A stretch of 64,000 bases of DNA from Idiomarina aquatica. GTDB taxonomy: Bacteria; Pseudomonadota; Gammaproteobacteria; Enterobacterales; Alteromonadaceae. The position numbers and the translations under genes were made by a program. The notes beneath the pieces were generated by a model. That model worked only from the letters and a program-made list of their open reading frames with translations. It had not been told where the DNA came from and did not search any database. This document shows positions 28,801 to 52,346 of this stretch, in pieces; position 1 is the stretch's first letter; each line of letters opens with the position of its first letter. The stretch spans positions 744,001 through 808,000 of the forward strand of contig NZ_PIPS01000001.1 of NCBI RefSeq assembly GCF_003987185.1, given 5' to 3'.

Positions 28801-29406
28801 CTACTCAGCACCCTCAAAGATAAAGCCCTTACGGCGCAGGTAGTCGGTGACTTGCTCAGCCGCAGCCTCAACACTCATTTCCGCGGTACGCAGATGGATC
28901 TCCGGTGACTCCGGCGCTTCGTAGGGCGACGAAATGCCCGTGAAGTTGGCAATCTCGCCCGCCCGGGCTTTTTCGTACAGTCCCTTTGGATCCCGCTGTT
29001 CACAAATCGCCAACGGCGTATCGACAAACACTTCAATAAAGCGCTCACCGGCTATCTTACGCGCCTGCGCCCTGTCCGCTCTGAACGGTGAGATAAACGC
29101 TGTCCCCACGATAAGCCCGGCATCCACAAATAACTTGGCCACTTCGGTGATGCGGCGGATGTTTTCCACCCGATCGTCATCACCAAAACCCAGATCGTTA
29201 TTTAACCCATGACGAACATTATCACCGTCCAGCAAATAGGTGTGACAGCCCAATTCAAATAGCTTGCGGTCCACCGCATTGGCAATGGTCGACTTACCCG
29301 AGCCGCTTAAGCCCGTGTACCAAAGCAGTGCCGGTTGGTGGCCCTTGTGAGCGATGCGATCCTCATGGCTGACCGAGGTGTTATGCCAAACAATATTCGT
29401 ACTCAT
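28801..29406 (-). CDS. cysC: Adenylylsulfate (APS) kinase
   Basis: A 201-residue cytoplasmic kinase that phosphorylates adenosine 5'-phosphosulfate to PAPS, the universal sulfuryl donor. The P-loop is GLSGSGKST (32-40). The [10 protein letters not shown] segment, FISPFRADR, the [18 protein letters not shown] region and [16 protein letters not shown] are all typical of CysC. The gene overlaps pgi by 4 bp (ATGA). There is no cysD/cysN (ATP sulfurylase) in the window, so this copy is placed with glycan genes rather than assimilation genes. That placement, beside cysQ and with two sulfotransferase genes downstream, supports a role in polysaccharide sulfation. Confidence 0.96.
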
Positions 29407-36269: not shown

Positions 36270-37337
36270 GTGACTCAGCCTCAACGGAGTATCGCGTTTA
36301 TTGCTGGAAACAAAAACCCACAAAAATTCGCGTCCGATCCTGCTTTCATTTATCGTTGTGAAAACCCTGCTGCTGCCGCTAAAGAACAGGGGCATAACGC
36401 GCACTGCCTGCATATTAACGACTGTTACACCAAGCTGCCAGAGGTAGATATCGCGGTGTTTCACCGCCCCTGCACCCGCACCTGGCTGCAACGATGGCAG
36501 TTTCGGCAGTTGATCCGGCGTTTGCGGGCTCAGGGAACGTTGCTGATTGCTGATTTTGACGATCGTGTTTTTGCCAGTGATTTTGCAAAAGACAGCCCGG
36601 GCGTCCGTAATAACTACGTCAGCCTAAAGCAAACCCAAAAAAACTTTGCCCAGCATCAACGTGTTCTTAATCTGTTCGATACTTACACGGTTTCCACCAC
36701 ACCACTGCAACAAACGCTGCAGCCACTGGTTGATGGTCCCGTGCATTGGCTACCAAATGCCCCGCATAAAAGCTGGTATCGTCATCAGCCCACAGCGACA
36801 GCCGACAACACCTTTATTATTAAATATCTGCCCGGCACCCGTAGCCACGACAAAGACTTTGCCTTGGTCGCTGACGCCGTAGGGCAATTTTTAAGCAAAC
36901 ATAAAGACGCTCAACTGCACATCACCGGTGTATTAGACCCAAGCCAGCTACCACATTCCCTTGCCGCGCAAAAAGATCAGATTATCTGGCAGCAAAAACA
37001 GCCTTATGACCTTTACTGGCAATGCGTTAACGCGGGGCACGTCCATCTAGCGCCCCTTGAAGATACGCCATTTAACCGCTGTAAATCGGCACTCAAAGCC
37101 ATCGAAGCAGGATTTTTTAATCGCCCGACCATAGCCAGTCCCATTCCTGATATGCAAAGACTTGCGAGCGCCGGCGTCAGTTATGCACAGACACCGACAG
37201 AATGGTTTGAGCAACTAGAGCGGCATAAACAACAACCGACCTGCCAGTATCAAGCACTTCGCGAGGCTGTGTTGGCCTGTTACAGTGCAGAACAACATGC
37301 ACAGGCTATTGTGCAACTTTACGAGCAACAACCATGA
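36270..37337 (+). CDS. Glycosyltransferase, GT-B type
   Basis: A 355-residue putative glycosyltransferase. It starts at GTG 36270, with AAGGA 8 bp upstream. The N-terminal half has FIAGNKNPQKFASDP, DIAVFHRPCTRTWL and LLIADFDDRVF. The C-terminal half resembles family 1/4 enzymes with FIIKYLPGTRSHDKDF, then VHLAPLEDTPFNRCKSALKA and EAGFFNRPTIASP, where a donor nucleotide would bind. Donor and acceptor are not predictable. It is the first of three plus-strand genes; its stop overlaps the next start by 4 bp (ATGA), so they are translationally coupled. Confidence 0.83.
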   Translation: MTQPQRSIAFIAGNKNPQKFASDPAFIYRCENPAAAAKEQGHNAHCLHINDCYTKLPEVDIAVFHRPCTRTWLQRWQFRQLIRRLRAQGTLLIADFDDRVFASDFAKDSPGVRNNYVSLKQTQKNFAQHQRVLNLFDTYTVSTTPLQQTLQPLVDGPVHWLPNAPHKSWYRHQPTATADNTFIIKYLPGTRSHDKDFALVADAVGQFLSKHKDAQLHITGVLDPSQLPHSLAAQKDQIIWQQKQPYDLYWQCVNAGHVHLAPLEDTPFNRCKSALKAIEAGFFNRPTIASPIPDMQRLASAGVSYAQTPTEWFEQLERHKQQPTCQYQALREAVLACYSAEQHAQAIVQLYEQQP

Positions 37338-38236
37338 AACTCGACAGCGCCCGCCAAGCCCTGCAACAAGGTCATTACAGCGTCGACGTACTGCACGCAT
37401 TTGCACACCAATGGCAACAGCGTCAATCGTTTCGCAGTTGGCTCGATTACATGATCGCAAAACGCCAGTTTGGGTATCCCCTGAGCGCTTGTCACCTGCA
37501 ACGGGCACTAACGTGGCATCGACAGTCGAGGTTACAGCGCTGGTCTAAGGGTATATACCGACATAAAGCGCGCCAACTGCTCAATCTCATCGCCGAAGCG
37601 CAGCATAACGTAGAGATGACGCCAGCGGTGATGCCTCCCTACCAGTCGTTAGTACAAGCTTGGCGAAAACAGCAAAACCAGCATTACCAAGCACTTGTAG
37701 AGGAGTTAAGCAACTCCCGTGTGATCGTTGTCGGTAACAGCCCAACGCTTGCCGGACAAAAACTAGGCGCCCAAATTGATCAGCACGATGTGGTAATACG
37801 CTTTAACCAGTTCTCGAGTGAACACACCGCCACCGTCGACATCGGCCAAAAACTGGCGATCTGGGTCATGGCACCAGGTTATGACGGACCTGTCCCTGAC
37901 GCCGTCGACTGGATCATTATTGCGGGCCCTCAAATGCTCTGGTGGCAACAGCAATGGCCACAGTTAATTAACCACCGGGGGGCGGTGCTGGGAGTGCCCC
38001 TGCAAAGCTGGCGTGCGAGTGTACAACAGCTGCACGCGCCACCCAGTGCCGGCTTTTTGATCATCCAGTGGCTGCGTTCATTCATGCCCTTCAAGCAGTT
38101 GAGCATAACCGGCTTTGGTATTAAGCCCAAGTTGCCGTATCATCATGCCATTAAAGGCCATCAAGCGGTTACCCGGCACAATTGGCCAGCCGAGCATCAG
38201 CAATTAAATAAGTGGATACAACAACACCCATTATGA
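37334..38236 (+). CDS. GT29 sialyltransferase-like protein
   Basis: A 300-residue protein whose C-terminal two thirds resemble eukaryote-type sialyltransferases (family GT29). The large-motif equivalent is VIVVGNSPTLAGQKLGAQID followed by QHDVVIRFN (130-158). The small-motif equivalent is PPSAGFLIIQWL...ITGFG (236-262). H282 and E287 in RHNWPAEH match the HxxxxE motif. In animals these enzymes use CMP-sialic acid; here the donor could be another CMP-activated acid such as Kdo or a nonulosonate, which is inference. Residues 1-125 are an unrecognised helical region. The gene is coupled by 4-bp overlaps to both neighbours. No CMP-sugar synthetase is in the window. Confidence 0.75.
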   Translation: MKLDSARQALQQGHYSVDVLHAFAHQWQQRQSFRSWLDYMIAKRQFGYPLSACHLQRALTWHRQSRLQRWSKGIYRHKARQLLNLIAEAQHNVEMTPAVMPPYQSLVQAWRKQQNQHYQALVEELSNSRVIVVGNSPTLAGQKLGAQIDQHDVVIRFNQFSSEHTATVDIGQKLAIWVMAPGYDGPVPDAVDWIIIAGPQMLWWQQQWPQLINHRGAVLGVPLQSWRASVQQLHAPPSAGFLIIQWLRSFMPFKQLSITGFGIKPKLPYHHAIKGHQAVTRHNWPAEHQQLNKWIQQHPL

Positions 38237-40272
38237 GCAACATCGAGCTAACGGTTAAGACACCGGACTGGGACCTTGAAGCACATCATCTGCAACACGT
38301 ACTGCACAATCAAAGTTTGTCCAAACTGGGTTGGCAACGCTTTGTGTTAATTGCCAAAAACGATGCTGCCGAACGATTCCTGAAAGACCAGGGCATGATT
38401 ATGTTGCGTCAGAACGATCATCTCCAGGGTGTGCCGCTTTGTCATGACGATCCGAAAAAGGCGTCGTTAGTTTTTTACCGACATAACCCACTGAATAAAA
38501 TTACCCTCGACTACGTATTTGCCGCGAATGCCAATACCCAGGGTGAGGAAACATTACATTTCAGTGTCCGGGTAAAACCAATTTCAGCCGCAAAAGCCTG
38601 GTTTTTCATGCTGCAAGCGGTTTCTAAAAAAGATAAACAAAATGGCCTTGGCGCCGCGCATATTTATCGAATAACCAGAGCACGGCAGAAGCGCAAAGGC
38701 GGCGAACATGCACTGCGAAAGTTGGTGCAAGCCTATCAACCATTATTGCAGTACCAACTCATTAGTTGCGAGCCATACAATTACTGGCGCCTGCACAATG
38801 AACCGCTAATGCGCGAAGCCCTACTGAAAAGCTACAAGCCAGGTATGAGCCTTACGGTTCACTCCCTCAACGAAGACACTCAACCCAGCGACATCATCCG
38901 TGACCACTGGTATTACTGGCGTACCGATGATTTCGTCTACACGCGACAGTTTGAACAACTGCTACAGGCGTCCGTGAGTAAAGCAGAAAAGCATCGGGCT
39001 CGATTGGTGTACTGGGATCACGACCAGTTATCCGCAGCCGGTGACCGGGTACGCCCACAATTCAAACCAGGCTGGAACCCTGAGCTACTAATGTCTAAGG
39101 ACTATATTGACGCCTGTTATGCTGTCAAAGGGGAGCTACTATTAAACGCGGATCCACAGCTTTTAATGGTTGCCGATAGCTATACCCGCCTGCTCAAATT
39201 GCTCAGTTTGGGGGATGAGCCCTATCATGTTCCGGTCATCCTTCAGCATCACAAAGGACCGTCCGAAAGCACGACCAGTGGCAACGCCAATGAGCTAGAG
39301 CAACAGCGTCAACAGGCGTTAAAAGAATGGCTGCTCAGTCAAGGTGAACAACCTCGGACCATTGAATCGGTGGTGGAGCCCGGAATTAGAAAAGTCAGTT
39401 TTCATGTACCGCAGGCAATCCCTGAGAAGCCACTGATAAGTATTATTGTACCAACACGCGATGGCTTAGATATCACGCAAAACTGTATTGACAGTGTGCT
39501 GTCGAAAACACAGTTCCGGGGCTTTGAGATTATTATCGTGAATAACCAAAGCGAGCAGGCCGAGACGCTGAATTGGTTTCAACAAATCACACAACACCCG
39601 CAAGTCAGGGTGGTCGACTATGACGCGCCATTCAATTATTCGGCAATTAATAACTATGCAGCCCAGCAAGCCCGGGGCAACTACCTCTGTTTTCTCAACA
39701 ATGACACCGAAGTGATTACGGACAACTGGCTGGACGAGTTGTTGCAACATGCACAGCGCCCGGCAATCGGGTGTGTTGGCGCAAAGCTCTATTATTCTGA
39801 CAATACCATTCAGCATGCCGGCGTGATTCTTGGCGTATGGGGCCTCGCCGGGCACGCCCATAAAAACTTCACTCGTCATTCACCCGGCTACTCGCAACGT
39901 TTGTTATGCGTGCAAAACTTCAGCGCTGTTACTGCCGCGTGTTTAATGATAAAACGCGACCGTTTCGAGGCCGTAAACGGGTTTAATGAAAATGAGCTTA
40001 CCGTCGCGTTCAACGATGTCGACCTCTGCTTAAAAGTGCAAGCGGCCGGATACCGAAATGTCTGGACCCCATTTGCAGAACTCTACCATTACGAATCCAA
40101 ATCGCGCGGTAAAGAGGACAGTCCAGAGAAAAAGGCCCGGGAACAACGAGAGATCCAGTACATGAAATCGACGTGGTCAAAACAACTGGCACATGATCCG
40201 GCCTATAACCCCAACTTAACTCGTGTGCAGGAAGACTTTGGTATTAATCTGGATCGCTGGAGTCGCCAATAA
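38233..40272 (+). CDS. GT2 glycosyltransferase with long N-terminal extension
   Basis: A 679-residue enzyme. I start at ATG 38233, which overlaps the previous stop as ATGA, rather than at an upstream GTG at 38212. Residues 1-400 form an extension of unknown fold with a KAWFFML...LVQAYQPLLQY region. The GT-A domain (about 405-680) has ISIIVPTRDGLDITQNCIDS, FEIIIVNNQSE, YLCFLNNDTEVITDNWLDE (DXD-like NDTE), CVGAKLYYSDNTIQHAGVIL, NFSAVTAACLMIKRDRFE and FNDVDLCLKVQAAGYRNVW. Such proteins are common in O-antigen and capsule loci. Its 3' end overlaps the convergent sulfotransferase gene by 29 bp. Confidence 0.9.
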   Translation: MSNIELTVKTPDWDLEAHHLQHVLHNQSLSKLGWQRFVLIAKNDAAERFLKDQGMIMLRQNDHLQGVPLCHDDPKKASLVFYRHNPLNKITLDYVFAANANTQGEETLHFSVRVKPISAAKAWFFMLQAVSKKDKQNGLGAAHIYRITRARQKRKGGEHALRKLVQAYQPLLQYQLISCEPYNYWRLHNEPLMREALLKSYKPGMSLTVHSLNEDTQPSDIIRDHWYYWRTDDFVYTRQFEQLLQASVSKAEKHRARLVYWDHDQLSAAGDRVRPQFKPGWNPELLMSKDYIDACYAVKGELLLNADPQLLMVADSYTRLLKLLSLGDEPYHVPVILQHHKGPSESTTSGNANELEQQRQQALKEWLLSQGEQPRTIESVVEPGIRKVSFHVPQAIPEKPLISIIVPTRDGLDITQNCIDSVLSKTQFRGFEIIIVNNQSEQAETLNWFQQITQHPQVRVVDYDAPFNYSAINNYAAQQARGNYLCFLNNDTEVITDNWLDELLQHAQRPAIGCVGAKLYYSDNTIQHAGVILGVWGLAGHAHKNFTRHSPGYSQRLLCVQNFSAVTAACLMIKRDRFEAVNGFNENELTVAFNDVDLCLKVQAAGYRNVWTPFAELYHYESKSRGKEDSPEKKAREQREIQYMKSTWSKQLAHDPAYNPNLTRVQEDFGINLDRWSRQ

Positions 40273-41641
40273 TCGCTTCGTCGTCCGCCTTGCGCTGTGC
40301 AGCGAGGGTGGCTAAACGTTCCTGATAACTGGCCAGTTGCCGCTGCAGTGCTTTCATCCGCTCACCACGTATGCCCTCTTGTTCTGCCAGGGCGTACCCA
40401 TGAGCGAGCACTTTAACCGCGGACTCTGTTTGGTCATGACGCTCCAGCCATCGTGCTATTTCACGCAGATAATCAACGCGACTCGCTTTTTCTGAAAGAA
40501 ACGTATCCATTGCCGTTGCTGGTAGCGGTTGCTCAATTTTCGGTTCTGGAACCGGCAACCCCATAACTTCAGCCAACTTGAGCAACGCATAAGGCAACGA
40601 TTCTGCATCGTCCTGGCTACGTTGACTGGTCAGTTTTTGCAGTAAACGCGCTTGCAACTCCTCCATCAGCTCTGGTAATTGCCGACAAAGCGTTTTATAG
40701 GCATCCACAACGCCGATAAGATCGAACCGCGTTTGCGAGTAGGTGATCGGTTGCACTGTGCGAGGCGACAAAAAGCCCGCCGGACAATTCTCAAGTAACT
40801 CCCGTTGCGCCTTTTCCATGGCCGGCTGATAACGCGCAGTGATGGCTTCATAAACGCCATCACTGACCACTTGAGGTTGCCAGTTACGCGAATTGTTGTG
40901 TTGGTCAGAATAAGCTTGTAACGCGCGATCAATTAGCCGACTTTCCTTGGGTTGTTGCTGGTCCAACAAGCCATTAAGCAGCCGTTTAATTTCTAGCGCA
41001 CCCTGCGTATAGCTGGTATTAATCCGCGCTTTGCTGCGCTTAAAACGGCGTGCTGACCAGCCCTCAATACCTAAGCGCTGTAAAAAATCAAGTTCAATGG
41101 CCGCCTTAAAAAAGCCCGGTTGATAATAAGGCCGCACCGAAACCTGCTCAGCAGAGAAGTGCTTGCGCCATTCGTAAAATACCTGCCCGCTCACACCTCG
41201 ATTGCTGATACCGACTTGCTTAAACAGAAAATCATCCAGCGTCAGGCTGGAGTAATGCCGCTTTATGGATTGGTTGTGATTAGAAACGAGCGACTCTAGC
41301 GGATGCCTAAAGTAACCAAGTATACGAGCATCAAAACCCTCTAATAGTTTTTTGACTCGTTTCGGGCAGCGATAAAGCGCCTCTGAGGAAAGCAGCAACG
41401 TACAGTCTTTTTGCTCAGCCTGCTGCCGCCATTCCTGCAACAATTGCTGCGCCTTATCCATTTCATTATTGGCAACGGCAGCGCCAAAGTTAGCATGCCC
41501 CCCCGAGACAAAATTTTCATCAAAGTTGTGCGCGGGGTAATAAAAGCCGTGTTTTTGCAAACGCTCGCGATTTGCGTGCAAAAAGTACTGAATGGCCGAA
41601 GAACCCGTTTTCGGTGCTCCAATGTGCAAAACTACGTTCAT
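40244..41641 (-). CDS. Sulfotransferase-like protein
   Basis: A 465-residue protein with the PAPS-binding signature at its extreme N-terminus: VVLHIGAPKTGSSAIQYFL (residues 3-21) is the 5'-phosphosulfate loop, and ILGYFRHPLESLVSNHNQSI is the 3'-phosphate segment. The start is ATG 41641, behind AAGGAC; a longer frame to 41692 has no support. Residues about 240-465 are helical and may bind the glycan acceptor or partner proteins. It would move sulfate from PAPS onto a sugar hydroxyl. It is last in the seven-gene minus-strand operon, 31 bp after the GT2-GT4 gene. cysC and cysQ 12 kb away would make PAPS and remove PAP. Confidence 0.82.
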   Translation of the reverse strand: MNVVLHIGAPKTGSSAIQYFLHANRERLQKHGFYYPAHNFDENFVSGGHANFGAAVANNEMDKAQQLLQEWRQQAEQKDCTLLLSSEALYRCPKRVKKLLEGFDARILGYFRHPLESLVSNHNQSIKRHYSSLTLDDFLFKQVGISNRGVSGQVFYEWRKHFSAEQVSVRPYYQPGFFKAAIELDFLQRLGIEGWSARRFKRSKARINTSYTQGALEIKRLLNGLLDQQQPKESRLIDRALQAYSDQHNNSRNWQPQVVSDGVYEAITARYQPAMEKAQRELLENCPAGFLSPRTVQPITYSQTRFDLIGVVDAYKTLCRQLPELMEELQARLLQKLTSQRSQDDAESLPYALLKLAEVMGLPVPEPKIEQPLPATAMDTFLSEKASRVDYLREIARWLERHDQTESAVKVLAHGYALAEQEGIRGERMKALQRQLASYQERLATLAAQRKADDEAIIGDSSDPD

Positions 41642-41672
41642 AATGTCCTTAATACCGGCTCGGTTGCTCGTA

Positions 41673-44534
41673 TCACGAGTGCAGCACCTCAAGTAATCTT
41701 GGTTTTACGGCATCCACCGAGAACTGTCGCGCACGATGAAGTGCTTGTTCACGCAACTGCACCAACCGTTGAGGGTGTGTGATTAATGACGTTAATTGTA
41801 AGGCCAATGCATTGATATCACCAAAAGGCACCAACACGCCTGCGTCGTCGCGAAGCAACTCACTCAGTGCTCCCCAGTCGTACGCAATCACGACTTTACC
41901 GGCCGCAAGCCCCTCCAATACAGAGCGACCGAAGGATTCCTGAAAATGTGACAAGTTGACAACCACGTCCAATTGTTTCAGCGCTTGCACCGGATCATCG
42001 ACATAGCCGTTAACGACCACGTTGGCCTCAGGGTATTGCTGCTGCACCTGGCTTAAGTCTTCGGTTAATGGACCAAATAGATGCCACTCGAAATTTGCGT
42101 CATTATAAAGTGTGCTGGCAAGTTGGTAAAAATCTTTTATGCCTTTTTTCGCCAGGTTACTGCTTAACATACCGACGCGTAACGGGCGCTCAGAGGCGTA
42201 TTGCGGAAAATCAGTTTGTGCACTGACAAACTGCTCAGGCTCAATCACATTCGGCACAATAGTCGTGCGTTCCGGAGCCTTAAGTTCAGCCGCCACACAG
42301 GCTGAGTTCGCAATTAGAACGTCTGCGTTGTCAAGTAAGTGCTCACGTATCGCATCAGCCGACGCACCCAGTGTTTGACAAAGCGTAGCATCGTGCTCCG
42401 GCAGTTCGCGCACATGCACAATGCAACGCCGTTGCTCCAACTCCGCCGCCAGTAATGGCTCATGCAGCGTTAGCGTGTTGACATAAACCTGCTGTACCGA
42501 CCTCATCCATAGCCTAAGCTGTTGAAGCACCTCATCGTCCGTAGCCCGGCTCGCGTGCCACCAGCGCAGCGGCAAAAAGCTAATGCACTGACTTAATCGC
42601 TGAACTTTTGACACATAATCGGCATTCAGCGCTCCAGGCAGCACAACCCATAACTGGTAATGCGGTTGCAACATCGCCAGGACATCCAATAGGCTTTTTT
42701 CTGCCCCAAAGGCCTCTCCGGCAGTGCTATGAGCAATCACCATTAAGGTTGGTCGCTGCGAGGCGGTTGCTAATGCGCCAAGCGTTAATGACGCGGTCAC
42801 ATCATCCGCATCAGTTGTCGGAACCGAATGCAGTTCCTGTTTCGTTAAACAGTGAACTAAGGGGTTTTCATTAAGGGAGAGTCGATGCACATAACGATAA
42901 CCCGAACTACTAAAACGCGCACAAGGATCACGCCCCTCAGCCGCGCCAAACTTCAAATAATGCAACGCCGGTTCGATACCGGCCTGCGCAACGTCGGGAT
43001 AGCGCTCTAAGTAGTAAGTTGCATCAAAAAGTGTCGAACGATAAAGGTGCTCGACGGCATTCGCCTGCCACGCTTCATCCGTCCCCCGAGACAAAGACAA
43101 TGGCGCAACAAATGGCCGACGTTTTGGATAACGTGCCAGTTGGCGGGATGACGCTTGCCGGTGCCATTCTGCTGCGGCCTGCTGATAGCGTCTGCGTACC
43201 CCACCAAGCATACTACTAACATGTGTTGCGTCAGATTGTGTCAGTGAACGTTGGTCCACTCGACCAAACGCTAGAGGCACCGCGGGCATGACTTCGCGCA
43301 CTGAGTCAGTACCGAATTCCGCAAGCACTCGATAATAGAATTCGGTATCGCCATCAGCTCTGACAGCATCCCAATAACCTAACCGTTTAAAAACACGGCG
43401 TCGATACATTAATGACGACACATTGGGATATATCCAGCTCGCTTCAGGACGCCAGCGACTGAAGCTTAGCCGGTCATCGGCTCGCACCCAGGCACTTCGG
43501 TTAGCGACAGCCTTAGGGTGTTTTAATAAGTCATAGACCTGACACGCAATCTTATCCGGGTGGGACCAATCATCGGCATCATGAGTCGTTATGAACTGCC
43601 CTTTGGCCACATCCAGGCCAGCATTACGAGCGCCATAAGCGCCTTCATTTGAATGCAGATGGACAACTGAAATTCGCTTATCGAGTTTGGCCAACTCCGT
43701 CATGACCTCTGCGGTATTGTCCTTACTGGCATCATTAACCAGAATAATCTGTAATCGCTGCCAGCTTTGCTGTTGCAAACTTTTAACTGCTGTCGTCAGC
43801 GTCGTTGCACAATTATAGCAGGGTACAATGACGCTAACTTTTGGCTGGCGCTGCCAGAACCCGGGCCTCTTCAAACGCCCTGTGGCGGTCAACGCATCAA
43901 ATAACGACTCGCCTTCGCAAGGGCCACTTAATGGGGCAAGATTTACAGCCTCATAGATTTGGTTAATTGCCGCAAATCGTTGCTCTTTTGCGACCACCAT
44001 CGACTCAGCCAAGTAATGGTCGTGACGACCCAAATCATCGACGATGGGCCAATGCTCAATCTGCACCAGGCGTTCGGCTTCGGATTGCCGCCCTGTGCGC
44101 AACAAAGCCTGCAACAAGCATAGAAAAGGCCCTTGGTGTGGCACCAATGCCCGTAAAAGTTCTAAGCCATCGGCATATTGAAGCGGGGACAACAGATCAA
44201 CCACCGATCGCCACTGGTTCTTAGCACCATAATACTGAGCCAAAAACCAGCGCCCCAACTGCGCATCGGCTTGTTCGTGCAAGCCCTTGCTTTTATCATT
44301 ACGCGCGACGTCGCGCGCTAATTGTTCATGCGCTGAATCATTTTGCCACAACTCAGCAGCCAAGCTCACCGAGGTAAACCGCGCGGGCCACCGGCCTTCA
44401 AGTCGCCCAAACGCCAAATAGTGTTGAAAAGGCTCAACACTCGCCCGAGCGACATCAGGGTTGCTCCGACAATAGTAGTCATCATCAAAAACCGCTTTCA
44501 GGCTTTTCAATGCCACTGATGATTTACTTGCCAT
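41673..44534 (-). CDS. Bifunctional GT2-GT4 glycosyltransferase with YPDV-type repeats
   Basis: A 953-residue two-enzyme fusion. An N-terminal repeat (FDDDYYCRSNPDVARASVEP, HYLAFGRLEGRWP) is followed by a GT2 domain with KVSVIVPCYNCATTLTTAVK, ILVNDASKDNTAEVM, GAYGARNAGLDVA and the metal site THDADDWSHPDK. A second repeat (FDATYYLERYPDVAQAGIEP, HYLKFGAAEGRDP) precedes a GT4 domain with RVGMLSSNLAKKGIKDF, NVVVNGYVDDP, NLSHFQESFGRSVLEGLAAG and LVPFGDINALA. Both active sites look intact. The GT2 half closely resembles that of the 48025-49977 protein. The gene lies 18 bp after the ATP-grasp/acylphosphatase gene. Confidence 0.9.
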   Translation of the reverse strand: MASKSSVALKSLKAVFDDDYYCRSNPDVARASVEPFQHYLAFGRLEGRWPARFTSVSLAAELWQNDSAHEQLARDVARNDKSKGLHEQADAQLGRWFLAQYYGAKNQWRSVVDLLSPLQYADGLELLRALVPHQGPFLCLLQALLRTGRQSEAERLVQIEHWPIVDDLGRHDHYLAESMVVAKEQRFAAINQIYEAVNLAPLSGPCEGESLFDALTATGRLKRPGFWQRQPKVSVIVPCYNCATTLTTAVKSLQQQSWQRLQIILVNDASKDNTAEVMTELAKLDKRISVVHLHSNEGAYGARNAGLDVAKGQFITTHDADDWSHPDKIACQVYDLLKHPKAVANRSAWVRADDRLSFSRWRPEASWIYPNVSSLMYRRRVFKRLGYWDAVRADGDTEFYYRVLAEFGTDSVREVMPAVPLAFGRVDQRSLTQSDATHVSSMLGGVRRRYQQAAAEWHRQASSRQLARYPKRRPFVAPLSLSRGTDEAWQANAVEHLYRSTLFDATYYLERYPDVAQAGIEPALHYLKFGAAEGRDPCARFSSSGYRYVHRLSLNENPLVHCLTKQELHSVPTTDADDVTASLTLGALATASQRPTLMVIAHSTAGEAFGAEKSLLDVLAMLQPHYQLWVVLPGALNADYVSKVQRLSQCISFLPLRWWHASRATDDEVLQQLRLWMRSVQQVYVNTLTLHEPLLAAELEQRRCIVHVRELPEHDATLCQTLGASADAIREHLLDNADVLIANSACVAAELKAPERTTIVPNVIEPEQFVSAQTDFPQYASERPLRVGMLSSNLAKKGIKDFYQLASTLYNDANFEWHLFGPLTEDLSQVQQQYPEANVVVNGYVDDPVQALKQLDVVVNLSHFQESFGRSVLEGLAAGKVVIAYDWGALSELLRDDAGVLVPFGDINALALQLTSLITHPQRLVQLREQALHRARQFSVDAVKPRLLEVLHS

Positions 44535-44552
44535 TTCAACGTGGTCCTCACT

Positions 44553-46967
44553 CTATTTATCCAGAATGTTAACGCCACCTCTGGCATTGAAAATGTTGAG
44601 TGGTCGGCAGCTCACTTCAGTAGGGACAGACTTATTAGAACCCTGAATGAGTAATCGCTGTAACTCATCGAGCGCAACCTGTGTACCACGAGCAGAAATT
44701 TCCACTTCTGAACCGACATTGCGAATGCCTGCTTCTAGCCCCAGCGCAGCACACATTTTTGCAGCCCAACGCCGGTAGCCCACACCAGTAACCTTACCAC
44801 GCACTCGGTAATATCGTGCCTGCCGTTCTGTATTGCCAGCTGGCAGTAGGTCAGCCATGATCTCTCCCGCGACATTGCGCGGTTTTCCTACCGAGGGAAA
44901 ATGATGCAACGCAACATCGCAATTAGCATTGACCTCAATAACTGCGGTCTTTTTGGGGTCGATGGGCGAACTGATATCGGTTGCTAAAATATCAACGCCG
45001 CAATACGCCAAATCCGTAAACGCTAACTGTGCCCGTTCCGCTAACGCGCGATAATCATCATGCACCTTATCGGTAACATCAACGCTATCGCCGCCAGCAC
45101 TGACATTAGCAATGTCATTTAAAAAGCAGTGCTCATTATCCGCCAGCACTGTCGCCAAGGTATAACCAGACTTCTGTAAACGATAGGCCATCGCTTCATC
45201 ATAACGTATCACGCATTTTTTCAGGTATGGATTGGCTTTACGCGCTTTATTCTTAATGGCAATGAGCTGCTCTATCGTATGCTTTCCATCACCAGTAACA
45301 CTCGCAGGCAGTCGATGAATCGCCGCTAAAAAACGCCCTCCAGAGCATATCAAACGAAAGTCATCGCCTTCGATATGTTCCTCGATAACGACCTGACTTG
45401 CCCGCGCATAATCGAGCGCCATAAGCAGCTCATCATAGCTTTGAATATTTGATGTAACGCCTTTACCACCGGCACCATCAATCGGCTTTACCACCACCTT
45501 GGTACCAGTTGGCAGCGCCCGGTACCACGTCGTAATCGCATCGATATCGTTACTCGCAAACGCCTCACCGCGGGGCGTATAAATGCCCGCCTGCTCCAAC
45601 TTGCGCTTAGTTGCGAACTTATCGTTGGTTATTTCACGAGTCTTCAACGACGTCACGGCCGGCATGTTTTGCCTAAACCGCAAGGTACGGTTAGCACTCG
45701 TCACCGACCAGCGCTTGTACCCCGACTTATTGGTAAAACAATTAACCAGACACCCCTGCCGCCAAGCGGCGCGTTGCAAGATGAGCTGATGAATATTGCC
45801 CTGATTGTGCAACAGCTCGGTATCAGGCTCAGCAATGACCGGCGCATAGTCAGCAAGTGCGCGACCACTGAAACTAGCTCTCACTGCACCGCTTTTTAAA
45901 TCATCTTTTATCGCGCGTACACTGATAGGCGCTGTGTTGTGCAGGCGTTTCGGCTGTGAGAAAAAGTAACACACGAAGGCATCGGCAAAATCAAAGGGGT
46001 CACCCAGATCTGGTTTTAACAACGAACTGCTCTGTGGACGACTGTTGATTTCGATAACAACCAGTTCTTTTCCGGTATCAATGACATCCGCAGCGAAAAC
46101 CTCAAGATCCGGGAAAGCACTATAAACGGCCTCACAGAATTGCCCGCAACCAGGCAGTGAGTTTAGTGGTACGCGTTCGATCATCCCACCGCTAGAACGT
46201 CCCAACTTATCCGAAAGGATGATTTGCTCGCCCGCTTCGGGGACCGACTGATAGGTCAACCGGCTTTTTTTCAACCGCAGGAGGGTCGCATCCTCAAACT
46301 TTATTTTGGGCAGTTTTCGTTTGCCACGAGCCGTATTTTCTTGCTCAATCAACTGCTCAACAGTCCTCTGACCGTCACCCGTAATCATCGGAGGATGACG
46401 CCGAACAGCAGCAACCGGTTGCCCGCCTAGCGCATAAATACGGTACTCTTTTCCGCTGATATGACGTTCACAGACCACCTTACCCGATAATTTTTGCAAC
46501 ACCGACGTAAGCTCAGCGGGCGTTTCAATATTCGCAAACACGCCTTTCCCCATACTGCCCTTCACTGGCTTCAGAACCAACGGGTATGAGGCTTTGCTGT
46601 GAAGCGCCTGATAACTTTTAGGATCATCTAAGTCGTATAACTGTGGTTTCGTCGTGGCAATGTTATAGCTAGCCAGCGCCGCTGCCGCAGAGAACTTATC
46701 AGCCAACGTTTTGCGGGTTTGCTCAGAAACACTGAGCGCGAGCGTACGATTAAAAATCAACCGCCGCCGTCCATCCGATAACCGGTAAAGATTACCAAGT
46801 TGGTTAGCTTGATTAAGAGGTACCTGTAAATGCTTAAAAAAAGGAATGCCTAGCCACTCAACCCGCAGCCCCCGTCGCTCAGCAGCTAAAGAAATGGCAT
46901 AGCTACAGGTATTGTTACTGCTGAAGCCAGTGACAAAATAATCACTCAGCGTCGCAGTGCCGCTCAT
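44553..46967 (-). CDS. Tandem ATP-grasp ligase fused to a C-terminal acylphosphatase
   Basis: An 804-residue protein with an unusual architecture. Two ATP-grasp domains of the cyanophycin-synthetase/glutathione-synthetase type lie in tandem: the first (about 80-350) has YPLVLKPVKGSMGKGVFANI, HISGKEYRIYALGG, HPPMITGDGQRTVEQLIEQE and VVIEINSRPQ; the second (about 445-705) has KVVVKPIDGAGGKGVTSNI, HIEGDDFRLICSGGRFLAAI, LPASVTGDGKHTIEQLIAIK and AVIEVNANCDVALHHFPSVG. Residues 718-777 are an acylphosphatase: RGKVTGVGYRRW with catalytic R732, and GIRNVGSEVEISARG with N750. ATP-grasp enzymes join a carboxylate to an amine through an acyl-phosphate intermediate. I infer ligation of amino acids to a peptide or uronic acid. 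It overlaps the next upstream gene by 4 bp. Confidence 0.85.
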   Translation of the reverse strand: MSGTATLSDYFVTGFSSNNTCSYAISLAAERRGLRVEWLGIPFFKHLQVPLNQANQLGNLYRLSDGRRRLIFNRTLALSVSEQTRKTLADKFSAAAALASYNIATTKPQLYDLDDPKSYQALHSKASYPLVLKPVKGSMGKGVFANIETPAELTSVLQKLSGKVVCERHISGKEYRIYALGGQPVAAVRRHPPMITGDGQRTVEQLIEQENTARGKRKLPKIKFEDATLLRLKKSRLTYQSVPEAGEQIILSDKLGRSSGGMIERVPLNSLPGCGQFCEAVYSAFPDLEVFAADVIDTGKELVVIEINSRPQSSSLLKPDLGDPFDFADAFVCYFFSQPKRLHNTAPISVRAIKDDLKSGAVRASFSGRALADYAPVIAEPDTELLHNQGNIHQLILQRAAWRQGCLVNCFTNKSGYKRWSVTSANRTLRFRQNMPAVTSLKTREITNDKFATKRKLEQAGIYTPRGEAFASNDIDAITTWYRALPTGTKVVVKPIDGAGGKGVTSNIQSYDELLMALDYARASQVVIEEHIEGDDFRLICSGGRFLAAIHRLPASVTGDGKHTIEQLIAIKNKARKANPYLKKCVIRYDEAMAYRLQKSGYTLATVLADNEHCFLNDIANVSAGGDSVDVTDKVHDDYRALAERAQLAFTDLAYCGVDILATDISSPIDPKKTAVIEVNANCDVALHHFPSVGKPRNVAGEIMADLLPAGNTERQARYYRVRGKVTGVGYRRWAAKMCAALGLEAGIRNVGSEVEISARGTQVALDELQRLLIQGSNKSVPTEVSCRPLNIFNARGGVNILDK

Positions 46968-48028
46968 TTCTTTGCTACCGTTTTATTAAACACATCAAAG
47001 GATTTGCCGGCGATCAAGTCTTGCTGTAAGCGCGCCTCGGCTCTTAAATAGTGTTCACCAAGATAGCGATCAAATTGTGCGTTAAACGCGTTGTACTGAC
47101 CCGGTCGAGGTGTAAATTCACCAAACACAAACTGATTTTCGCTGCGTAAAAAATCAATGCGCATAAACGGCGCCGGGATTGCAGAGCTTACGGCTAACGC
47201 CTGTTGCGCTTGCTGTTGCGTGAAGCCCTTTCCTTCAAAGGTTTTATTCTGATAGCGCCCGGTTTTTGCTAGGGTCATATCCGGCATCCACTCACAATAA
47301 TGCCCACCATGCTCACGGTCGACTTCCAGCACAAAACCCAATTCACCGTAAAAACAGTAAAACTTCAGGTCCCGAGCAGGAACAGGCCGGCCATCCACGT
47401 CATCGCCAATATACTCTTCGAGAACCCAGCGGTTGTTGCGGATCACATTCGTATCGAGCAACTCATCAATTCTCTCGCGCAACGCCTGTTCACTCGGTAG
47501 GTTTTCCCCAGTCTTTACCTCAGTAATCCGGTCACCCGACAAAATGTAAATGCCGTTGCTGGATGAACCATTGGTCGGTTTTAAGACCGCCGGTTGGTTT
47601 AATTCAAGTCGTTCTATCGGCTTGGGTTTGGTTAACGGTTTCGGATGCTTCATTCCCAATGCGTTAACGAAGCGGTAGCCTCTCGCCTTACCATTTAACT
47701 CCAACTCGTTACGAAAACCTGACAGTTGACGTCTTCGGGTAGCCCTCGTTAAACATTCGCTAAACGACGCCGCCGCATGCAATGCAGCTCCAACGGTTGC
47801 CGCTTGCCTAACGTAAGCCTCAGACAGTTCATTAGCAGGAAAATGCTCACTCACGTATTCTAAAATATCAATGCGCTGTTGCTTATTGAGTTTATTCAAC
47901 TGCGAAAGCACCAGCGAAAGCAGTTGGCTTCTTTGCTTTTGTTGTTCACATCGCTGCTCGTAAGCCTCGGCAATTTTTTGCATTAATTCTGTTACTACTG
48001 AATCACTCAGCTGTTCGGTATTACTCAT
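46964..48028 (-). CDS. ATP-grasp protein, TupA-like
   Basis: A 354-residue protein. Residues 1-100 are helical. An ATP-grasp-like core follows: QPAVLKPTNGSSSNGIYIL (ATP-binding lysine and glycine-rich loop), VLEEYIGDDVDGRPVPARDL, LKFYCFYGELGFVLEVDR, and the metal-binding end MRIDFLRSENQFVFGEFTPRPG. This order resembles the TupA-like ATP-grasp family, which is found in teichuronic-acid and capsule loci and is presumed to add amino acids to uronates. Product and substrate are inferred. It overlaps both neighbours by 4 bp, placing it firmly inside the operon. Confidence 0.75.
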   Translation of the reverse strand: MSNTEQLSDSVVTELMQKIAEAYEQRCEQQKQRSQLLSLVLSQLNKLNKQQRIDILEYVSEHFPANELSEAYVRQAATVGAALHAAASFSECLTRATRRRQLSGFRNELELNGKARGYRFVNALGMKHPKPLTKPKPIERLELNQPAVLKPTNGSSSNGIYILSGDRITEVKTGENLPSEQALRERIDELLDTNVIRNNRWVLEEYIGDDVDGRPVPARDLKFYCFYGELGFVLEVDREHGGHYCEWMPDMTLAKTGRYQNKTFEGKGFTQQQAQQALAVSSAIPAPFMRIDFLRSENQFVFGEFTPRPGQYNAFNAQFDRYLGEHYLRAEARLQQDLIAGKSFDVFNKTVAKK

Positions 48029-49977
48029 GCAATACTCTCAATAAAAATCTTATCGGTGTTAAATACATCACGGACCTGCGCCTCAGCTTGCTCTATCACC
48101 GTATCTTTGTACGCGCCATCAGACAGTCGTCCACGATCGACCAGCACAGCCGATTCAATGCCCTCAAATTCCGGCGTTGCAACAACGGGATAAACCAGCA
48201 ACTCAAGGTCACCCACAAGCAATGATTTAGCATTGACCTTGTCGCCAAAAACAATGGGTTCGGCTAAGCCTTCATGCAATAACTCACAATACTCATTCAC
48301 AAATCGGTATTGCTTATTGTTGAAGCTTGGCCAATGCAACAACGCAATTTTTTCACCCTGTTCGGCCAGTTCACGGGCTTTCGTTAGCACTTCACGACTG
48401 TTTCGTTTACTTAAAAAGTCAGCGACGATAACCGTATCAAAGCTCTGGTGGTCGCCTCGTTTATGTAACATGGCCTGAGGAATCGAGGTTTTTGCCGTCG
48501 GATCAAGCCCGCGCTTATGGTACCAACGGCATATTTCCCGATACACCTGGCGCAGACCAAAGTAAACCGTACTAACATGGGTTGCTTTAGTACGCGTTAA
48601 CGAACTTTCATCATCCAACGCAAACGCCATGGGCACCTCGGCCAGGCCATGCAAAATTGCCTGTTTGCCAAAATGATGTTGAGCGCGCCAAATGTATTCT
48701 GTATCCGCACTGATACGAACTTCATCCCAGTGACCGATCTTGCTTACCGCCTCACGGGTGAGCATAAACGATGAATGACTGTAGTGGATGATGCTGTCGG
48801 ATGGCCGCCAATTGATCGTAAAATGTAAATCATCCGTCGCCCGAACCCAGCTTAATATCACACCTTGCGCATCAGGCTGCGCGCGCAATAACGTCATCTG
48901 TTGTTCTAGCTTTTGAGGATGGGACCAGTCATCCGCGTCGTGGGTTGTAATGTAATCGCCACTGGCTTCCTTTAAGCCGCGATTACGTGCCGGGTAAGCG
49001 CCCTGGTTGTGGGGTTGCTGCACCACTTTCACACGACGATCTCGCGCAGCGATAGCATTCAATACCGCCACCGTATTATCGGGTGAGCAATCATCCACGG
49101 CAATAATCTCAATATTGCGCCACGTCTGATTCAGCAGCGAATTTATCGCAATCTCGATACGGTCTTCCGCTTTGTATATCGGCATAATAATCGAGATTTT
49201 TTCATGTTGCTCAGCAGGCGGTATCGCGCAATCACGCTCGCTATGATTTGAGGTCAAATTGGCAAACGCAAGTGGCTGTTGCTCATCGGCTCTTGCAACC
49301 GGCAAATAGCCATGCCGCTGATACATATCATTAATGCAGGCCAAGCGCTGTTCATCGTCCGCAAAGGTGTTCGCCAACATTAAACGTGCATCAGGATCAT
49401 CAGGATTTTCCGACAAATAGTCCGTTAGTATCTCTGCGGCAGCATCGGCTTGCTGCAGTTTTAACCGACTATTTGCTTCGAGCAACACTCGTGCCTTATC
49501 CAGGCGCTGGAGCGGCAACAACTCAGCCATTTTAAGGCTGAGCTCTAATGCCTCGCGATGTTCGCCATTGAAAGCCCGCCAACGAGCCAACGACCACGCG
49601 GCCAAATGGCGCTCCTGGATGGGGGCGCGTTCATCCTCAAGGATCTTAGCCAGAGCCCGGCAAGCGCTAATAGCATGGCCGGACCAGACTTTATCTTCCA
49701 GCACGTCCAGCTTGTTTTGCCGCGAGTGACGCCCTTCTTTTGCACCATGTAAAATGTAGTGCAACAGCGGGTTCATACCACTCTCAGCAACATCAGGATA
49801 GCGCTCAAGATAAAATTCCGTGTCGAACTTAACACCGGGATTTCGTCCTAATTTAGCACCAATTTTGTAATAGTGTTCCGCTGGGTGCATACCCAACAAA
49901 CCAACGTCAGGGTACTTTTTTATGTACCAATCACGCTGTACAAAACCCGACTCTTTTAATATTTCTATCGCATTCAT
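48025..49977 (-). CDS. GT2 glycosyltransferase with two N-terminal YPDV-type repeats
   Basis: A 650-residue protein. Two repeats open it: QRDWYIKKYPDVGLLGMHP and FDTEFYLERYPDVAESGMNP, each followed by HY, a glycine-rich turn and G-R. A helical region resembling TPRs (about 90-230) follows. The GT-A domain (about 255-480) has EKISIIMPIYKAEDRIEIA, IIAVDDCSPDNTVAVL, GAYPARNRGLKEASGDYI and the metal site THDADDWSHPQK. The C-terminal 130 residues (from SFDTVIVADFLSKRN) look like a partial Rossmann-type domain. Its GT2 core is paralogous to the one at 41673-44534. It overlaps the ATP-grasp gene and the small repeat protein gene by 4 bp each. Confidence 0.88.
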   Translation of the reverse strand: MNAIEILKESGFVQRDWYIKKYPDVGLLGMHPAEHYYKIGAKLGRNPGVKFDTEFYLERYPDVAESGMNPLLHYILHGAKEGRHSRQNKLDVLEDKVWSGHAISACRALAKILEDERAPIQERHLAAWSLARWRAFNGEHREALELSLKMAELLPLQRLDKARVLLEANSRLKLQQADAAAEILTDYLSENPDDPDARLMLANTFADDEQRLACINDMYQRHGYLPVARADEQQPLAFANLTSNHSERDCAIPPAEQHEKISIIMPIYKAEDRIEIAINSLLNQTWRNIEIIAVDDCSPDNTVAVLNAIAARDRRVKVVQQPHNQGAYPARNRGLKEASGDYITTHDADDWSHPQKLEQQMTLLRAQPDAQGVILSWVRATDDLHFTINWRPSDSIIHYSHSSFMLTREAVSKIGHWDEVRISADTEYIWRAQHHFGKQAILHGLAEVPMAFALDDESSLTRTKATHVSTVYFGLRQVYREICRWYHKRGLDPTAKTSIPQAMLHKRGDHQSFDTVIVADFLSKRNSREVLTKARELAEQGEKIALLHWPSFNNKQYRFVNEYCELLHEGLAEPIVFGDKVNAKSLLVGDLELLVYPVVATPEFEGIESAVLVDRGRLSDGAYKDTVIEQAEAQVRDVFNTDKIFIESIA

Positions 49978-50510
49978 AAGTCGGCTTTATCACTCGGCTG
50001 AATTTCCCGACCTTCCTTCATACCCTGGCGTAGATAATGAACCAATGGATTCAAACCCTGCTCCGCAACATCTGTATGAAAACCTAAATACCAACGGGAA
50101 TTAAACTGAGGGGACGGATCACGACCTTCTTTACCACCGTGAATCGCGTAATGCAAAACAGGATTCATGCCCGACTGCTTTACATCAGGATAAGTGTGCA
50201 AATACCACTCAGCATCAAACCAGTCAGACTGACGCAGCAGTTCGACATCTGACGATGGCAGTTCAGTCTTCGCATCCGCCTTTTTCAAAACTTTTTTGAC
50301 TTTGCCAAATAGCCCGCCTGCAGCTGGCTTCACATTGCGCTTGGGCTGGCTACCGTCCGGGCGGATAGCCGGAGGCTTTTCCGGCAACTCAAGTAACCAC
50401 TCGGTCAATCTGGCATTATCTTGCGCTTGCTGTTTAAGTTGTTCCTTAAGTGCTGCGACTTCTTCACGCAGTGCCGCATTTTCCTGCTGTAGTTCTTCAT
50501 TTGTCGGCAT
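49974..50510 (-). CDS. Small coiled-coil protein with two YPDV-type repeats
   Basis: A 178-residue protein without catalytic motifs. Residues 3-45 form a heptad-like coiled coil (EELQQENAALREEVAALKEQ and following). A basic, proline-rich linker follows, then two copies of the repeat also present in the neighbouring glycosyltransferases: FDAEWYLHTYPDVKQSGMNP, HYAIHGGKEGRDP (about 98-133) and FNSRWYLGFHTDVAEQGLNP, HYLRQGMKEGREI (about 138-172). There is no signal peptide, so it should be cytoplasmic. A scaffold that gathers the repeat-bearing enzymes is my inference. It overlaps the GT2 gene by 4 bp and lies 3 bp after the ATP-grasp-like gene. Confidence 0.75.
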   Translation of the reverse strand: MPTNEELQQENAALREEVAALKEQLKQQAQDNARLTEWLLELPEKPPAIRPDGSQPKRNVKPAAGGLFGKVKKVLKKADAKTELPSSDVELLRQSDWFDAEWYLHTYPDVKQSGMNPVLHYAIHGGKEGRDPSPQFNSRWYLGFHTDVAEQGLNPLVHYLRQGMKEGREIQPSDKADL

Positions 50511-50513
50511 AAC

Positions 50514-51608
50514 TTAAGCGCCTGCATTCAGTCGTTTGATGGCATCCCATGCAGTCCGCATTTGCTCATTGACAAGCTCAGCTAACTTATTCGGCGCAGC
50601 TTCTTTCAGTTGCTTATATTTATCGGATAAACGCCATGCACCTCGCGACTCGCCCTTCTCGGCAACCGCAGCCAGTCGTTGATACTTCCAGTCCGGAATT
50701 TCCTCCACCGTGGCCAACGCGGCATCATCAACCGCCGACAGTGCCACCGAAAAACGCACCGCGCTATCAGCTTGCTGACCCTCAATCAGGTTTGCGCTGC
50801 CGTTATCGAGGCGGCTTTTGGCGCCGCTAAATTTATCATCAAGTTGTTTAACGACATCAGAAGACAGCTTAACCGCTTGTTTCGTTAGAATGCGAGGCGC
50901 AAAATCCAGTCCCGCGAACACAGGCCCCGTTGCGGTGGCAAAAAGCTGCACCGCAACAAACGGCGCTTTTGTTGCTAGTGATAGCGTTTGCGCGAGTTTC
51001 ACATAGCGCGCGGCATGTTGAGGAATCAAATGATGCCCCTCTACCAATTCGCTACTGCTCAACGTCACATCTTGACCAAAGGCAAGCGGCAAAAATGCAC
51101 CATCAAAATAGCTGACACGTCGCGTCGCAAAGTTATAGTCAGTTTGGCTGATAAAACCAACAATACCGTTGAACACATAAAAACTGTAACTTACCGGTGA
51201 TACGGTACTGCTCAGTGCGCCAGGCTCACGAGCCTCTACAACCCACTGCTGCGGAACACCGGTAAATGTTGATTGATACAGTTGCGTCAGCTTTTCTTTT
51301 AACTTTTTAAGTCCATAAGAACGCAACGTGACATGATCAAAAAACCGGTTGTTCGGTTCACGGTCGATAATCATCAACGCCTTAGCTGACCAACCATCCG
51401 CTAATTTGATGACACAATGTTCGGCGAGCATATCCTCAGAAAGTTCGTCAATCGAATCTAACCGATGCGCCTGTTGAGTCGTCTTGACGCCTTGTTTTTG
51501 GGCCCAACTGACCGAGTTCAGATAGGACGCGAGCTCGTGCGACGGCTCAAGGTCTGCAAGTTGGTTAACATGAGCTAAAAACGGTGAATTAGTATCGACA
51601 ATTGTCAT
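50514..51608 (-). CDS. ATP-grasp-like protein heading the glycan operon
   Basis: A 364-residue protein, starting by preference at ATG 51608 (MTIVDTNSPF); a longer frame to 51677 runs through the terminator of the upstream gene and is unlikely. The middle region HCVIKLADGWSAKALMIIDR, WVVEAREPGALSS, YSFYVFNGIVGFISQTDYN and RRVSYFDGAFLPLAFG follows the order of TupA-like ATP-grasp proteins (nucleotide loop, linker, F-x-F-x-G, R-x-x-F-D). The glycine-rich loop is weak, so activity is uncertain. C-terminal residues are helical. As first gene of seven it probably acts on the same pathway. Confidence 0.6.
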   Translation of the reverse strand: MTIVDTNSPFLAHVNQLADLEPSHELASYLNSVSWAQKQGVKTTQQAHRLDSIDELSEDMLAEHCVIKLADGWSAKALMIIDREPNNRFFDHVTLRSYGLKKLKEKLTQLYQSTFTGVPQQWVVEAREPGALSSTVSPVSYSFYVFNGIVGFISQTDYNFATRRVSYFDGAFLPLAFGQDVTLSSSELVEGHHLIPQHAARYVKLAQTLSLATKAPFVAVQLFATATGPVFAGLDFAPRILTKQAVKLSSDVVKQLDDKFSGAKSRLDNGSANLIEGQQADSAVRFSVALSAVDDAALATVEEIPDWKYQRLAAVAEKGESRGAWRLSDKYKQLKEAAPNKLAELVNEQMRTAWDAIKRLNAGA

Positions 51609-52264: not shown

Positions 52265-52346
52265 AAACACCTCGTATAAAAACAGTAAGGCGGCCACCAC
52301 CGTATTTGGTCGTAGCCACTACCCTTACTTTAAAAGCAACCGCCGA

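Follow-up and report, generated by a model that had tools for sequence, protein, structure and literature searches.

What is made by an operon that combines ATP-grasp ligases with glycosyltransferases and a sulfotransferase-like protein? The question is raised by a locus of Idiomarina aquatica (assembly GCF_003987185.1, contig NZ_PIPS01000001.1), situated within a stretch of 64,000 nucleotides (positions 744,001 to 808,000 of the contig) that was analysed in full and is called the window here. On its minus strand, at 40244-51608, are seven open reading frames, in transcriptional order AG1, rep, GT2rep, AG4, AG5, GT2GT4 and ST1 (Table 1). The rare ligase set among them probably attaches amino compounds to acidic sugars of a capsule; the reading that we favour, with moderate confidence, is a sulfated uronic-acid capsule exported via the KpsC/KpsS-ATP-binding cassette (ABC) route, with AG4-AG5 as an inserted cassette for amide-forming decoration.

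An earlier reading, made without database searches (the sequence-only reading), had described the seven-gene set with 4-bp overlaps or short gaps, and it is present at the same positions: AG1 and rep are 3 bp apart, rep/GT2rep, GT2rep/AG4 and AG4/AG5 overlap by 4 bp each, and gaps of 18 bp and 31 bp separate AG5 from GT2GT4 and GT2GT4 from ST1, the latter if ST1 starts with the ATG at 41641. Between AG1 and the gene upstream of it (51731-52300), the minus strand has a terminator-like hairpin (51702-51681), which is no more than suggestive: 27 such sites were found in this region, where 15.4 are expected. The glycosyltransferase assignments were borne out, with Pfam matches to GT2 in GT2rep and to both GT2 and GT4 in GT2GT4, and AG5 is indeed a tandem ATP-grasp protein fused to an acylphosphatase, as Pfam recognises two ATP-grasp regions and an acylphosphatase. 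The count of three ATP-grasp-type proteins needs refinement: the three proteins have four ATP-grasp-type domains between them, of which three have intact sites.

AG4 is a member of the TupA-like ATP-grasp family (PF14305), with 126.2 bits at a Pfam cut-off of 25. K150, E204, D292 and E304 are conserved in all four aligned AG4-type sequences; from family knowledge we take these residues, and the conserved residues of AG5, to have catalytic and metal-site roles. Judged by its sequence, the ATP and metal site of AG4 is intact. A search of solved structures with the AG4 profile gave no convincing match (best E=0.17), and a distant AG4 relative was found in one record of the plasmid search. Amide formation on a uronate by AG4 is a prediction from the Campylobacter precedent described below.

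All sites of AG5 are conserved too: K133, E167, D294, E306 and N308 of ATP-grasp I (4/4 sequences), K494, E529, D659, E678 and N680 of ATP-grasp II (5/5) and R732 and N750 of the acylphosphatase (5/5) are unchanged. ATP-grasp II is nearest to the cyanophycin synthetases, both by profile and by the sequences of solved structures: about 280 residues align with solved cyanophycin synthetases and the same metal-site letters line up. A fold search with a weak AG5 model, used only as agreement with the sequence, gave the same likeness. AG5 as a cyanophycin synthetase proper was rejected: it reaches 345.9 bits with TIGR02068 (cut-off 850; best stretch at profile positions 196-478 of 862) and Pfam found no Mur-ligase domain. 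AG5 resembles CphA1/CphA2 in an alignable second ATP-grasp domain with retained metal-site residues, but has a further, RimK-like ATP-grasp and an acylphosphatase in place of the Mur-ligase domain. With TIGR03103, the model of N-acetylglutaminylglutamine synthetase, the score is 208 bits (cut-off 569). Because the enzymes that AG5 resembles most extend peptides by amino acids, we propose that it supplies or extends the amino-acid partner. Ten phage records match AG5, all of them only within its ATP-grasp regions (query residues 126-709); ATP-grasp I matches 113 plasmid records and, among the matches listed, 4 of 10 are annotated as N-acetylglutaminylglutamine synthetase. Related frames also occur in other surroundings: a gammaproteobacterial metagenome-assembled genome encodes ATP-grasp II-acylphosphatase alone (L025, 1545-2972, plus strand), with adjoining frames that look transporter-like and amidotransferase-like by eye, and a Gracilibacteria locus (L026) has a row of separate ATP-grasp-like frames, where no glycan genes were recognised by eye.

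The sequence-only reading had named a lack of conserved co-occurrence and degenerate ATP-grasp sites as evidence that would speak against it. AG4, AG5, GT2rep and a Ugd (UDP-glucose 6-dehydrogenase) occur together in two further families, of which one belongs to a different class, while AG1 and rep are missing from the locus of Idiomarina ramblicola; the residues of AG4 and AG5 are intact, while AG1 looks degenerate. AG4-type matches are found in 2 of 394 genomes of the order, 1 of 369 of the class, 1 of 75 of the family of G762 (see below) and 4 of 398 of the phylum; these samples overlap, and those of order, class and phylum contain the source genome. Within the genus, the search for AG5 covered whole genomes, and that for AG1, AG4, rep and GT2rep covered the fetched loci only. 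When 98 relatives (source included) were searched with AG5, 20 had some match, in 18 of them only a partial one; the class sample has matches in 50 of 369 genomes, full length only in the source genome, and among 240 genomes of the G1108 class, 5 match a profile of ATP-grasp I, with nearly full length only in G1108 itself.

Seven AG4-type loci were inspected: the source (G000), I. ramblicola R22 (G007), a genome from another family of the same order (G762), one from another class (G1108), G1100, G1111 and a Gemmobacter plasmid. The first four have AG5 at most 2 kb from AG4, and in all four loci that carry both AG5 halves a Ugd-family gene is found within 13 kb of AG5. The order in G762 is GT2rep, AG4, two other genes, AG5, polysaccharide lyase 14, Ugd, a rep-like gene, GT2GT4, another gene and GT2a; this Ugd is a homologue (73%) of the one in the window, and the locus has a heparinase II/III-like gene as well. 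These lyase-type genes fit a polymer of uronate, and together with the Ugd-family genes near all four loci they are our reason for considering uronate the likely acceptor. In G1108, a Ugd-family gene (31% identical to Ugd of the window), a GT2rep relative, AG4 and ATP-grasp I are consecutive on one strand. AG5 is split here (L083, 11099-13675): ATP-grasp I and ATP-grasp II-acylphosphatase are on opposite strands and convergent, with 3' ends that overlap by 54 bases. Counterparts of GT2rep are 58% (I. ramblicola), 83% (Idiomarina G009), 43% (G762) and 30% (G1108) identical. That so rare a pairing as AG4-AG5 recurs across classes, even with AG5 split, is in our informal judgement hard to explain by chance. 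The conserved unit is the AG4-AG5 ligase core with GT2rep and Ugd, narrower than first proposed.

AG1 had been counted among the ATP-grasp-type proteins, and it is a divergent member. Its PF14305 score (22.8 bits, E=7.3e-5) is under the Pfam cut-off, the hhalign comparison with the AG4 family gives E=1.1e-4 at a probability of 56, and Gln221 and Asp235 of AG1 align with D292 and E304 of AG4, so that two metal-site positions differ; on these substitutions AG1 was rejected as a third active ligase. AG1 is probably a non-catalytic paralogue, and in the 60 kb fetched from I. ramblicola no AG1 homologue other than AG4 was found. The protein rep had been called a repeat scaffold: the repeats are there, but they are the same YPDV-type repeats as in both glycosyltransferases, behind a coiled-coil-like stretch. 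A rep counterpart is 68% identical in G009 and another one (41%) is part of a 642-amino-acid protein of G762; none was found in the I. ramblicola locus.

Within the genus, a core of all seven genes was rejected, as the loci of I. ramblicola, G009 and G002 each lack some members. I. ramblicola has GT2rep, AG4, AG5, GT2GT4 and ST1. G009 has rep, GT2rep, GT2GT4 (61%) and ST1 (61%); AG1, AG4 and AG5 are missing from its locus and AG5 was not found anywhere in its genome. Two other genes occupy the place of AG4-AG5, one sulfotransferase-like (a weak match, E=0.0084, below cut-off) and one encoding a putative rhamnosyltransferase (E=9.5e-20), and for this reason AG4-AG5 looks swappable. In G002, GT2GT4 and ST1 are present without GT2rep, ligases, Ugd or other operon members in the 20 kb seen of a 33-kb contig. 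The ligase pair thus looks separable from ST1 and GT2GT4 within Idiomarina. GT2rep of G009 (L075, 7038-9005, minus strand) is more similar to its counterpart than its neighbours are to theirs (83% versus 61-68% identity), which may point to a recent exchange.

That the glycan is sulfated had also been proposed, and the surroundings agree: CysC and CysQ are encoded in the window, CysD and CysN follow in the same island to its right (stretch L061), and no CysH-type match was found. PF01507, which both CysD and CysH match, finds one site in this genome, which is CysD; the same search gave matches in the control E. coli and in 13 other genomes. Sulfation is well supported, since 3'-phosphoadenosine 5'-phosphosulfate (PAPS) is made while no PAPS reductase of the PF01507 family was found in this genome. 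ST1 and a second sulfotransferase-like protein, ST2, share KTG(S/T) and R112...S120 with four relatives (6/6 aligned proteins), motifs that we take to bind PAPS; ST2 has a counterpart in I. ramblicola (42%). A DASS-like anion permease (below the model cut-off) and rhamnose-type genes also lie to the right of the window. Among 19 genomes of the genus, 11 have a strong CysC match (E below 1e-60); any CysC match is found in 18, the weak ones near E=1e-4 and in longer frames. Ten genomes have a strong match with the size of CysD, and one (G008) has another strong match, with the size of CysH; weak PF01507 matches of G014 and G018 (1e-10) were scored neither as CysD nor as CysH. Ten genomes have both CysC and CysD; in 9 of them the two share a contig, at most about 46 kb apart, and in G013 they are on separate contigs. 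BLAST with the window genes and inspection by eye recognised glycan-type genes near CysC/CysD in most stretches fetched and none in 18 kb of G006. Of the ten Idiomarina genomes in which CysD and CysC are both strong, nine lack a CysH-type match, which suggests that sulfation is what PAPS is used for in much of the genus. A subtilase gene (window 15980-18205, minus strand) has homologues near CysQ/CysC in several Idiomarina loci; here it is about 10 kb off.

The operon is part of an island with the outline of an ABC-exported capsule locus of the 3-deoxy-D-manno-oct-2-ulosonic acid (Kdo) type, with KpsC/KpsS and exporter genes found in the host genome (2.97 Mb). PF05159 occurs at three places: two are in KpsC and the third is in a separate 489-amino-acid frame (C1:875985-876734), about 80 kb from the operon, which is probably KpsS. 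An ABC ATPase, an ABC-2 permease and a Poly_export/SLBB protein (L097) are likewise about 80 kb from the operon, and this distant exporter would serve the glycan considered here. The proposed supply of uronic acid by ugd is supported, with a correction of its place: Ugd shares the strand of the operon and belongs to the island, but lies 8.2 kb past the 3' end of the operon and outside it. It is an island gene rather than an operon gene because GalE, a WecA-like gene, KpsC and three genes of the opposite strand intervene. A phosphoglucose isomerase gene is also on the minus strand of the window.

Table 1. Features of the operon and of the surrounding capsule and sulfation island (window positions).
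Feature	Position	Strand	Basis and remarks
ST2, second sulfotransferase-like protein	55487..56536	-	same motifs as ST1; no Pfam match at E 0.01
AG1, divergent TupA-like ATP-grasp, probably inactive, 364 aa	50514..51608	-	PF14305 below cut-off
rep, 178 aa	49974..50510	-	coiled-coil-like stretch and two YPDV-type repeats, from sequence
GT2rep, repeats and GT2 glycosyltransferase	48025..49977	-	PF00535 E=7e-37
AG4, TupA-like ATP-grasp, predicted amidoligase, intact site	46964..48028	-	PF14305 E=2e-36
AG5, ATP-grasp I, ATP-grasp II (CphA-like) and acylphosphatase	44553..46967	-	Pfam: two ATP-grasp regions, acylphosphatase
GT2GT4, repeats, GT2 and GT4 glycosyltransferase	41673..44534	-	PF00535 E=8e-33, PF00534 E=4e-17
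ST1, sulfotransferase-like	40244..41641	-	KTG(S/T) and R112...S120 motifs, gene context
GT2a glycosyltransferase	38212..40272	+	PF00535; convergent with ST1; 43% homologue in G762 locus
GT29-like protein	37334..38236	+	PF00777 E=1.5e-11
GT4a glycosyltransferase-like	36270..37337	+	PF13692 E=2.9e-4, below cut-off
KpsC-like capsule protein	34179..36182	-	PF05159 E=3e-90
WecA-like initiating transferase	33088..34164	-	TIGR02380 298.9 bits, below cut-off of 326
GalE, UDP-glucose 4-epimerase	32073..33086	-	TIGR01179 over cut-off
Ugd, UDP-glucose 6-dehydrogenase	30896..32062	-	TIGR03026 over cut-off; PRK15057 E=7e-207, below its cut-off
CysC, adenosine 5'-phosphosulfate kinase	28801..29406	-	TIGR00455 over cut-off
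CysQ, 3'-phosphoadenosine 5'-phosphate phosphatase	27889..28629	-	TIGR01331 over cut-off

How could these proteins act together? Ugd would provide UDP-glucuronic acid and GT2rep and GT2GT4 would assemble the repeat unit. AG4 would activate the uronate carboxylate as acyl phosphate and then join it to an amine, as described for Cj1438 of Campylobacter, while AG5 with its two ATP-grasp sites would produce or lengthen the amine partner, which is most likely a short chain of amino acids; its acylphosphatase domain may have an editing role and clear stalled acyl phosphates. ST1 (and ST2) would add sulfate from PAPS, and the product would be exported by KpsC/KpsS and the ABC transporter. Uronate as acceptor, an amino acid or peptide as donor and the order of steps are what we infer from gene content and precedent.

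The closest precedent is Campylobacter jejuni HS:2, where the C-terminal, TupA-like domain of Cj1438 has been shown enzymatically to amidate capsular glucuronic acid with serinol phosphate or ethanolamine phosphate before elongation, and the GT2 that acts next, the GT2 domain of Cj1438, takes only the amidated sugar (PMC11800379, PMC12409886). Both systems have a GT2 and a TupA-like ATP-grasp enzyme that act, or would act, together on a glucuronic-acid capsule (PMC11800379); here they are adjacent genes, and GT2rep with AG4 may by analogy be a split form of the Cj1438 arrangement. The poly-Kdo linker of the Campylobacter capsule (PMC11800397) is a further likeness to the Kdo-type island. Differences are the amines, serinol and ethanolamine in Campylobacter, and a CphA-like tandem ligase, an acylphosphatase and sulfation, none of which the available part of that report mentions (PMC11800379). 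The Pfam name of the AG4 family derives from TupA of Bacillus halodurans, which is tied to a teichuronopeptide of polyglucuronate and polyglutamate (PMC8153356); that polymer belongs to a Gram-positive cell wall, and sulfation or an AG5-like enzyme are not mentioned in the excerpted text (PMC8153356). Amide-linked alanine is described from marine glycans: the capsule of Microbulbifer sp. KMM 6242 has galactosaminuronic acid amidated with D-alanine and a Pseudoalteromonas glycan contains mannuronoyl-alanine (PMC3210612). The Microbulbifer capsule thus shares the marine origin and the uronic acid amide-linked to alanine with our proposal; neither sulfate nor the responsible enzymes and genes are stated for it in the passage available (PMC3210612).

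Sulfated capsule loci are described from Vibrio sp. KMM 8419 (PMC11641403) and Cobetia marina KMM 1449 (PMC11766843). Like the island here, both have cysN, cysD and cysC near glycosyltransferase and rhamnose genes, together with sulfotransferases, to which the sulfotransferase-like ST1 and ST2 would correspond here, as reported in the parts available (PMC11641403, PMC11766843); Vibrio KMM 8419 in addition shares wecA and kpsS (PMC11641403), and Cobetia KMM 1449 kpsSC, cysQ and a sulfate permease (PMC11766843). They differ in that the term ATP-grasp is absent from either text. The sequence-only reading knew of no pathway with this combination, which is only partly right: the combination was not found described, but uronate amidation (Campylobacter), the teichuronopeptide (Bacillus halodurans), uronate-alanine amides and sulfated capsule loci are all known already. 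TupA-like amidation is therefore not new chemistry, and each of the chemistries has its separate precedent. A CphA-like ligase-acylphosphatase as partner of a TupA-like enzyme, and the union of this pair with sulfation, were not found described in searches limited to openly licensed papers, which is weak evidence of absence.

Several observations weigh against a sulfated uronic-acid capsule with an amide-forming cassette. AG5 is rare, present in 2 of the 19 genus genomes (AG5 of I. ramblicola is 63% identical), and was unseen in the stretches of three of the seven AG4-type loci: G1100, G1111 and, by annotation, the Gemmobacter plasmid. No ST1/ST2 homologue was found by BLAST in the G762 and G1108 stretches, and for this reason sulfation and amidation look separable; a Pfam sulfotransferase is likewise absent from the 8 G762 and 6 G1108 proteins scanned, although Pfam misses ST1 as well. 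The sulfotransferase label of ST1 agrees with the PAPS-site motifs and gene context, but no Pfam match is above cut-off (one of six ST1-type proteins matches Sulfotransfer_1 at E=0.087) and no credible match was found among solved structures; the same holds for ST2. The AlphaFold models of AG5 and AG1 are poor, with mean predicted local distance difference test scores of 59.8 and 49.5. No glycan genes were recognised on the 4.7-kb contig of L025. Exopolysaccharide of I. ramblicola R-22 is reported to be mannose-rich with 0.5% sulfate and 0.8% protein; one fraction contains rhamnose and a different one 26% galacturonic acid (PMC6268429, values from a flattened table). Its sulfate and galacturonic acid fit the proposal loosely, but the polymer is not tied to the AG4-AG5 locus.

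The ligases may also serve a different product. The uronate could be amidated with a simple amine (ethanolamine, serinol or ammonia) that AG5 makes or handles, and the glycan would then be free of amino acids and peptides. The serinol phosphate or ethanolamine phosphate used by the TupA-like domain of Campylobacter (PMC11800379) and the uronic-acid primary amides reported from several marine or aquatic bacteria (PMC3210612) are in line with this; we consider it unlikely, as the nearest relatives of AG5 are amino-acid or peptide ligases and no Cj1435-type phosphatase was recognised among the seven operon genes. ATP-grasp ligases can act on either side of the bond, and with the direction reversed AG4 and AG5 would activate the carboxylate of an amino acid and join it to an amino sugar. 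The resulting N-aminoacyl amino sugars are known in marine Gammaproteobacteria (PMC3210612), but the Ugd-family gene at all four AG4-AG5 loci points to uronate, and no amino-sugar aminotransferase was met among the scanned island genes (many island genes lie outside the scans), and this direction is distinctly improbable.

A last alternative, that the product of AG5 is a free peptide (for instance a compatible solute or a store like cyanophycin) and that AG5 is in a capsule island by chance, appears very improbable: its matches to the synthetases of N-acetylglutaminylglutamine and cyanophycin, and the naming of I. ramblicola among halophiles (PMC6268429), are compatible with such a role, but both profile scores are far under their cut-offs, the Mur-ligase domain was not found and the linkage of AG5 to AG4, GT2rep and Ugd is retained in other families. 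A bolder version of the favoured sulfated, amide-decorated capsule is a Gram-negative counterpart of teichuronopeptide: a sulfated uronate capsule with peptides on its carboxylates, assembled independently of ribosomes by a TupA-like and a cyanophycin-synthetase-like tandem ligase acting in relay, the latter with an acylphosphatase as proof-reader, encoded by a mobile cassette in two classes of Pseudomonadota that is swapped in an otherwise fixed locus; as a whole this is doubtful.

If the favoured reading is true, sulfation and uronate amide decoration are united in one culturable marine genus, and the ATP-grasp-acylphosphatase fusion is offered a functional setting. Idiomarina genomes whose glycosyltransferases are close relatives, some with the ligase cassette and some lacking it, offer a natural comparison. 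Should the capsule carry peptides, ribosome-independent assembly of peptides on glycans would reach past the Gram-positive cell wall.

Two further features of the window were noted. A GSCFA-family protein (53654-54727, plus strand) is also present in I. ramblicola (64%) and G008 (40%). Two adjacent, related leucine-rich-repeat proteins are encoded on the minus strand, one at 60486-63218 and the other from 63274 across the right end of the window to position 2027 of L061.

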